From assembly GCA_015060705.1 (NCBI GenBank), contig SUXY01000004.1, positions 1-64,000 of the forward strand: a DNA stretch of 64,000 nt. The letters are read 5' to 3'. Below the pieces are notes generated by a model. It was given only the letters and a program-made list of their open reading frames with translations. It was not told where the DNA came from and did no database searches. Shown here piece after piece: positions 39,011 to 41,098 of the stretch (the first letter of the stretch is position 1; every line of letters starts with the position of its first letter). The stretch is from Bacteroides sp. (GTDB lineage Bacteria; Bacteroidota; Bacteroidia; Bacteroidales; Bacteroidaceae). Both the position numbers and the translations under genes were made by a program.

Positions 39011-39063
39011 ATTTATATTTTCATTCTATCCGAGAAAACGAATATTTTATCCTCCTAATTTTG
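39011..39063 (+). promoter_or_regulatory. susA promoter with candidate SusR site
   Basis: ATTTATATTTTCATTCT at 39011-39027; -7 TAATTTTG at 39056-39063. Same motif and spacing upstream of susB. Confidence 0.65.
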
Positions 39064-39105
39064 CGACATTAGGATATACGTATTTAATTATCAAACTCTC
39101 ATATC

Positions 39106-40953
39106 ATGAAAAAAGTAATTTTCTTTATGGCACTATTTGCATTTCTAGGATTGCATGCTGCAAAAGCAACCGTCGTCAAGAAGGTAGCGCCTACTTTTTG
39201 GTGGGCAGGAATGAAGAACCCTGAACTCCAGATTCTATTGTATGGAGACAACATTGCCTCCAACGAAGTAAGTATTTCCGCACAAGGAGTAGAACTTCGA
39301 GATGTAGTGAAACAGGATAATCCCAATTATCTTATCTTATATGTAGACCTTTCGGAAGCTGCACCACAAACATTCAACATTGCTTTAAAGAAAGGGAAGA
39401 AAATAACCAACGTACCTTATGAATTAAAACAACGTCGTCAAGGTTCATCGGAAGTCAAAGGTTTTGATGCCAGCGATGTACTTTACCTTATTATGCCTGA
39501 CCGTTTTGCCAATGGCAATCCGGACAATGACATTGTACCGAGCATGTTGGAAAACAAGGTAGACCGCAAGGAACAATATGGTCGCCATGGTGGTGACTTG
39601 AAGGGTATCGAAGATCATTTGGATTATTTGGAAGACTTGGGTGTAACAGCCATCTGGTTGAATCCGACTCAAGAAAACGACATGCCGGAAGGTTCATACC
39701 ATGGTTATGCCATCACCGATTACTTCCAAGTAGACCGCCGCTATGGTACCAACGAAGATTTTCTCCGTATGGTCAATAAGGCTCATGAAAAGGGACTGAA
39801 AGTAGTTATGGACATGATTTTCAACCACTGCGGCAGCCACAACTTCTTGTTCAGCGACAAGCCGTCCAAGGATTGGTTCAACTTCAAATCGGAATATGTC
39901 GGTACTTCTTATAAGACAGCCAGCGTACAAGACGTTCATGCATCCGAATACGAATATAAGATTGCAGTAGACGGTTGGTTTACCCAAGCCATGCCTGACT
40001 TGAACCAACGCAACCGCCATGTAGCCCGCTTCTTGATTCAGAGCAGTATCTGGTGGATTGAATATGCGGGTATCAATGGTATCCGTCAGGATACTCACCC
40101 GTATGCCGACTATGACTTCATGTCCCGTTGGTGCAAGGAAGTGAATGATGAATACCCATACTTCAATATTGTGGGTGAGACTTGGTTAAACAGCAATGTT
40201 TTGGTTTCATTCTGGCAAAAGGACAGCAAGTTGGCTGCTCCACGTAATTCCAACTTGAAGACAGTTATGGACTTCCCATTAATGGAGCACATGAACAAGG
40301 CATTCGATGAAGAAACAACAGATTGGTCGGGTGGTCTTTATCGTTTGTACGATTATCTCACCCAAGACTTGGTCTATGCTGACCCGATGAACCTGTTGAC
40401 TTTCCTCGACAACCATGATACTTCCCGTTTCACAACCAACGATGAAAAGGCGCAAAATCTCACTCGCTTCAAGCAAGCCGTTACTTTCTTGTTGACAACC
40501 AGAGGTATTCCTCAAATCTATTATGGCACCGAAATTTTGATGACTGGCGACAAGGGTGAAGGTGATGGAATGCTCCGTAAGGACTTCCCAGGCGGTTGGC
40601 CAGGCGACACACGTAACTGCTTCGAAGCAACCGGACGTACTGCCCAAGAACAAGAAGCTTTCGAATTCATCAAGAAGATGCTGAATTGGCGTAAAGGCAA
40701 TGAAGTCATCGGTAAGGGAACATTGAAACACTTCTCTATCAATCAGGGTGTTTATGTCTACGAACGTAAATATAATGGAAAGTCTGTAGTGGTCATCATG
40801 AATGGTAACGATAGAGAACAAACCATCGGTTTGGCCCCATATGCTGAAGTTCTTCCAAAGGCTCAAACCAAGGATATGCTTACCGGAAAAACGATTACCC
40901 TCGGTAAGGAATTAACTTTAGGCAAGCGTGAAATGTTTGTTCTTGAATTCTAG
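39106..40953 (+). CDS. susA: Neopullulanase SusA (GH13)
   Basis: Signal peptide; [65 protein letters not shown]. Confidence 0.93.
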
Positions 40954-41045
40954 AATATTTCATTCCATTTATATTTTCTATGATTATCGAATAAACAGAC
41001 AACACTGATTTACAACAACATAGCTGTTTTAATGGACTCTTTGGG

Positions 41046-41098
41046 ATTTATATTTTCATTCTTATAGAAACGTTAAATTCCAATAGCCATTAAATTTG
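41046..41098 (+). promoter_or_regulatory. susB(-G) promoter with candidate SusR site
   Basis: ATTTATATTTTCATTCT at 41046-41062; -7 TAAATTTG at 41091-41098. Confidence 0.65.

Follow-up and report, generated by a model that had tools for sequence, protein, structure and literature searches.

Which bases mark the sus promoters for activation by SusR? Among gut Bacteroidota, Sus is the model for how glycans are used. Growth on starch requires SusR, and the sus genes are induced by acarbose or maltose (PMC11633381). In the passages of Ravcheev et al. 2013 that deal with SusR, its predicted sites are direct repeats set unusually far apart, at 67 or 77 bp, with a spacer described as long and non-conserved (PMC3878776). 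A literature search turned up no experimentally defined SusR site, and no results from binding, footprinting or mutation experiments on its contact with DNA.

In this work we analyzed a stretch of 64,000 nucleotides from Bacteroides sp., referred to as the window, in which an earlier note had pointed to an identical 17-bp motif upstream of susA and susB and had proposed it as the SusR site. From the sequence comparisons we conclude that each sus promoter is likely to carry a three-part SusR activator site, formed by two half-sites and a centre; this judgement does not extend to the HU/IHF step considered below.

The sus locus and its regulator

The genes that frame the two promoters are the following.

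37272-38867, minus strand: susR, with a predicted periplasmic TPR-like sensor, one long membrane-spanning helix and a C-terminal HTH (NF058541, DUF6377, predicted structure)
39106-40953, plus strand: susA, GH13 of the neopullulanase/cyclomaltodextrinase type
41160-43379, plus strand: susB, GH97 alpha-glucosidase, first gene of a susBCDEF gene run (match to the SusB structure 2d73)

From 39106 on, the window carries susA (GH13), susB (GH97), susC, susD, SusE- and SusF-type genes and a further GH13-type gene. The identification of 37272-38867 as SusR with an HTH domain, made in the earlier note, is borne out by a match to the NCBIfam family NF058541 SusR_regulator (540.6 bits, curated cut-off 480), by a match to DUF6377 and by the predicted structure. 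In this structure TPR-like helices (40-297) are followed by a helix of 112 residues (303-414), which is predicted to cross the membrane, and by HTH helices (477-530) that would form the C-terminal domain; a fold search with the HTH returned only weak LuxR/NarL matches (E at least 0.2). Between susB and susC there is a stable hairpin, GCTAGTGGT...ACCACTAGC, at 43449-43487 (-18.8 kcal/mol, z -3.0), followed by TTTTT; it resembles a terminator or attenuator placed within the run of sus genes.

A repeated 17-mer at a fixed distance from the -7 box

Direct reading of the window gave the following elements.

39011-39027, plus strand: ATTTATATTTTCATTCT, susA proximal half-site (sequence reading, mismatch statistics, relatives)
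39056-39063, plus strand: TAATTTTG, susA -7 box (sequence reading, relatives)
41046-41062, plus strand: ATTTATATTTTCATTCT, susB proximal half-site (sequence reading, mismatch statistics, relatives)
41091-41098, plus strand: TAAATTTG, susB -7 box (sequence reading, relatives)

In both promoters the first base of the 17-mer lies 45 bp before the first base of the box, exactly as had been claimed. These are the only exact copies of the 17-mer, both in the window and in the genome of 2.95 Mb. With up to three mismatches the window contains five matches, against 0.67 expected, a number equalled in none of 100 shuffles. The earlier note had also suggested scanning this and other sus-bearing genomes for the motif: in the genome of origin only the susA and susB promoters, once each, match the composite pattern YTTATATTT, 35 nt, TAnnTTTG perfectly, and in relatives the register of 45 bp is conserved.

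The consensus of the -7 element recognized by sigma-ABfr is TAnnTTTG (PMC7366714). A TTTG at -33 is present neither in the susA nor in the susB promoter of the window, which agrees with what had been reported, and occurs in one of 63 non-redundant promoters, window included, against 2.6 expected from shuffles. This set was picked by a 6/10 match to the proximal half-site, and the distal and central elements described below played no part in the choice; its rows were thinned at 80% ungapped identity, and the relatives in it are not independent samples, no tree correction being applied. Promoters that lack the -33 TTTG would be in line with activator dependence.

Distal half-sites and spacing rules

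A repeat search revealed a second copy of the motif upstream of each 17-mer.

38944-38955, plus strand: ATTTATATTTCC, susA distal half-site (direct repeat of the proximal copy at a spacing of 67, kept in most relatives)
40967-40978, plus strand: ATTTATATTTTC, susB distal half-site (direct repeat of the proximal copy at a spacing of 79)

The spacings are 67 bp for susA (38944 to 39011) and 79 bp for susB (40967 to 41046). Compared with the distances given in the SusR passages of Ravcheev et al. 2013, susA fits and susB is a near variant, most relatives having 67 or 77 bp. In about 30 relatives the proximal copy keeps, almost without exception, a register of exactly 45 bp to the -7 box, and upstream of this copy, by 67 bp for susA and by 67, 77 or 79 bp for susB, lies the distal one; the register and these spacings are conserved across Phocaeicola, Bacteroides and Parabacteroides. 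Species that share the arrangement include, besides Parabacteroides and Phocaeicola, Bacteroides faecis, xylanisolvens and finegoldii, which were also among the sources from which the half-site motif was derived anew. In an unbiased profile taken over every TAnnTTTG box that precedes susA in relatives, the core peaked at 44 and 111 bp (that is, 44 + 67) before the box, with scores of 7.98 and 7.57 of 10 over a background of 4.06; for susB the same profile peaked at 44 bp. In Parabacteroides both halves read GTTTTGATTTTT and are still 67 bp apart, i.e. the half-sites change together.

The 17-mer alone could be a complete, compact SusR operator next to the promoter, as the earlier note had it, and the proximal copy is in fact better conserved than any other part, with an additional ATTCT block that the distal one lacks. 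This reading is improbable given that a distal copy stands at 67, 77 or 79 bp in nearly all relatives, and is found as well in promoters of SusR paralogs whose half-sites have another sequence. The assignment of the 17-mer to SusR is well supported as to the regulator, for which conservation, specificity and co-occurrence with susR speak, and incomplete as to the site, of which the 17-mer is only the proximal half. Since direct repeats had been predicted in the SusR passages of the 2013 study, the earlier note had rediscovered half of a predicted site; it included neither the second copies nor the third conserved element between them.

A conserved pair of T, 93% and 89% in orthologue promoters and often within TTCTAA, was also observed 10 bp before the susA distal core (38935-38936 in the window).

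Specificity and link to susR

The gapped pattern TTATATTTN{59,71}TTATATTTN35TANNTTTG has matches in 25 of 61 Phocaeicola genomes, and its reversed control has none in the same 61. The matched lengths correspond to spacings of 67, 68, 77 and 79 only, and the gene immediately behind each of the 30 matches that were fetched is susA, susB or susC.

GH97 loci with and without a linked susR were also compared: the core is in exact register with a box in 35/57 of the former and in 0/20 of those with no susR nearby (Fisher p 5e-7, uncorrected for relatedness). In several of the remaining susR-linked loci susB lies directly behind susA and has no promoter of its own. The motif is well supported, by sequence evidence, as a SusR-linked activator site beside a promoter that lacks the -33 element. 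That it might instead be a generic AT-rich promoter feature of the genome or lineage, unrelated to SusR, is suggested by its AT-richness, which intergenic DNA shares; against this stand the mere two perfect composite matches genome-wide, the empty reversed controls of the 61 genomes and the absence of the motif from GH97 loci devoid of SusR. The composite pattern is specific, and the idea of a generic AT-rich repeat, to which we would give hardly any probability, was rejected.

In the genome of origin, none of the fetched sequences that nearly match the composite has a half-site at 67, 77 or 79 bp, and the gapped double-core pattern with spacing 67 gave no other clean candidate; hence, as far as was searched, susA and susB are the only targets. 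Among the neighbors of the sus genes, a second SusC/SusD pair directly after them (53441-58227, minus strand) has no composite pattern upstream, and no composite site accompanies the GH77 4-alpha-glucanotransferase with CBM20 and the MFS transporter that adjoin susR (33068-37219). The second SusR-type site precedes susC, and not susB, in P. vulgatus, in P. sartorii and in some relatives (loci L213, L214, L227, L228); the genomes examined for this, P. vulgatus, P. sartorii and G005, have susB about 50 bp or less behind susA.

A third element inside the spacer

The alignment of the 63 promoters revealed a conserved block inside the spacer, with the consensus YTnATWATCAR-N4-TTA, or, more narrowly, YTnATWATCAA-N4-TTA. 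In the window it was located as follows.

38980-38998, plus strand: CTTATTTATCAGCTACTTA, susA central element (top score of the region under a PWM from which the window was left out; IHF match)
41005-41022, plus strand: CTGATTTACAACAACATA, susB central element (likewise the top score of its region under such a PWM, 1 bp off the predicted place)

The best scores of the PWM trained without the window were 11.2 at 38979 (susA) and 14.7 at 41003 (susB). In a leave-one-out test with a PWM of the 67 class, the predicted position ranked first of 128 in 38 of the 41 promoters of this class, and the same PWM ranked it first in 6/8 of the susB promoters of the 77 class. The distance between the element and the distal half-site hardly varies: when the spacing changes from 67 to 77 the element moves by 10, and in the 79 class it lies 1 bp further. 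Anchoring to the -7 box was consequently rejected, as the element moves with the distal half-site. It is apparently undescribed, the text of Ravcheev et al. 2013 on these sites treating the spacer as lacking conservation.

The consensus for IHF binding in E. coli is WATCARN4TTR. Measured against it, and bearing in mind that Bacteroidota HU/IHF proteins may not share this consensus, TATCAGCTACTTA at 38986-38998 in the susA promoter fits at 9/9 positions, the susB element at 6/9, which is weak, and 54 of the 63 promoters at 7/9 or more. An HU/IHF-family protein is encoded in the genome of origin. Our literature search found no paper joining SusR with IHF.

Promoters of SusR paralogs were analyzed with a motif-free test, in which 12-mers placed 45 bp before a -7 box were sought again upstream in 60 SusR-paralog loci (0.79 Mb). 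Spacings of 77 and 67 were the most frequent (six each), followed by 68 (three), every other one occurring at most once. The paralog half-sites differ from YTTATATTTT, for instance ACTACTTTTT and ACTCCTTTTT, and yet the central PWM trained on the orthologues has its peak in these promoters no more than 1 bp away from the predicted position; controls with a wrong spacing show no such peak. The fit to WATCARN4TTR in the paralogs was 6.63/9 against a null of 5.12 ± 0.19 (0/20000), several paralogs having T or A in place of the key C of WATCAR. For the genome's own SusR paralog (G000:C114, L069) no clear site was found. That the centre stays while the paralog half-sites change points to a shared factor, and the fit to the IHF consensus suggests a bend joining the half-sites; we would put binding of the centre by an HU/IHF-family protein at a little under an even chance.

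The bipartite SusR site could also have at its centre a further SusR contact, or the site of some unknown dedicated regulator, a possibility that we take seriously while holding it to be short of even. YTGATWATCAR is nearly palindromic; the left arm YTnAT, which IHF does not require and its consensus does not explain, is conserved; several paralogs that lose the C of WATCAR keep this arm, and the distance to the distal half-site is nearly fixed. A shared factor would account better for a centre that remains similar beside changing half-sites, and the IHF consensus has the N4 gap and the TTA block in the same register. The global regulator Cur/Crp (BT4338) is known to control many sugar genes and could be proposed for the sites as well; its consensus, wwwTATGTTnTAnAACATAwww, is unlike both the half-sites and the centre and has no match in either sus promoter (one match with three mismatches lies elsewhere in the window). 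A Cur/Crp site at the centre is excluded by the sequence, and control of the sites by this protein is very improbable.

Discussion

The computation itself shows the three elements, the rules of their spacing and the link to SusR. In the mechanism that we propose, SusR, anchored in the membrane and presumably a dimer, would respond to maltooligosaccharide in the periplasm, and its C-terminal HTH domains would contact the two direct-repeat half-sites YTTATATTTT, a contact for which the case is strong. If +1 lies 11 bp after the start of the box, the proximal half-site would span about -56 to -40; as it stands beside the missing -33 contact, SusR may recruit or stabilize RNA polymerase there. The distal half-site would be bound 67 bp (susA) or 79 bp (susB) above the proximal one. 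The central element would serve a shared protein that bends DNA, most likely a member of the HU/IHF family, and the bend would fold the DNA so that one SusR assembly holds both half-sites; in this folded complex we have weak to moderate confidence.

The motif that Ravcheev et al. 2013 (PMC3878776; RegPrecise) give for SusR is alike in having two short direct repeats far apart upstream of sus genes. In the parts of the article concerned with SusR, 67/77 bp separate the repeat centres, other sequences are assigned to SusR-like paralogs, and a dimer is proposed, for which the two sites share one helix face (PMC3878776). Set against those parts, the spacer holds a third element here and a 79-bp class is seen in the window and elsewhere; the -7 box at a distance of exactly 45 bp and the site before susC in relatives of P. 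vulgatus go beyond them. The promoters of AraC-type HTCS in Bacteroides are similar in that direct-repeat sites serve a membrane-anchored sensor-activator of glycan loci. The HTCS example in the same article (PMC3878776) has 14-bp repeats with a 6-bp spacer, unlike the SusR sites. SusR belongs to an unrelated protein family.

Regarding the proposed bend, the sus promoters share with IHF-assisted activation in E. coli a candidate WATCARN4TTR-like site between two predicted activator sites and the tolerance of a whole-turn insertion (67 to 77 bp). In activation of the E. coli type, IHF bends the DNA between separated activator sites. In contrast, the sus promoters are of the Bacteroidota sigma-ABfr type, the activator is predicted to be membrane-bound and the bending protein is putative.

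A base-resolution map with half-sites, centre, -7 register and spacing classes one turn apart pinpoints the bases and spacings to mutate, and separates a paralog-specific part, the half-sites, from a common part, the centre; this division would aid the prediction of SusR regulons and the design of glycan-inducible promoters. More tentatively than for the centre of the sus promoters themselves, we suggest that an HU/IHF-type bend at the shared centre may be common to the whole SusR family, with one membrane-anchored dimer bridging paralog-specific half-sites six or seven helical turns apart.

Half-sites of the CTACTTTTT type were also observed beside paralogs, at 67-68 or 77 bp (loci L235, L236, L240, L248, L262, L263, L269); these repeats are candidate sites for SusR-like regulators of other glycans.
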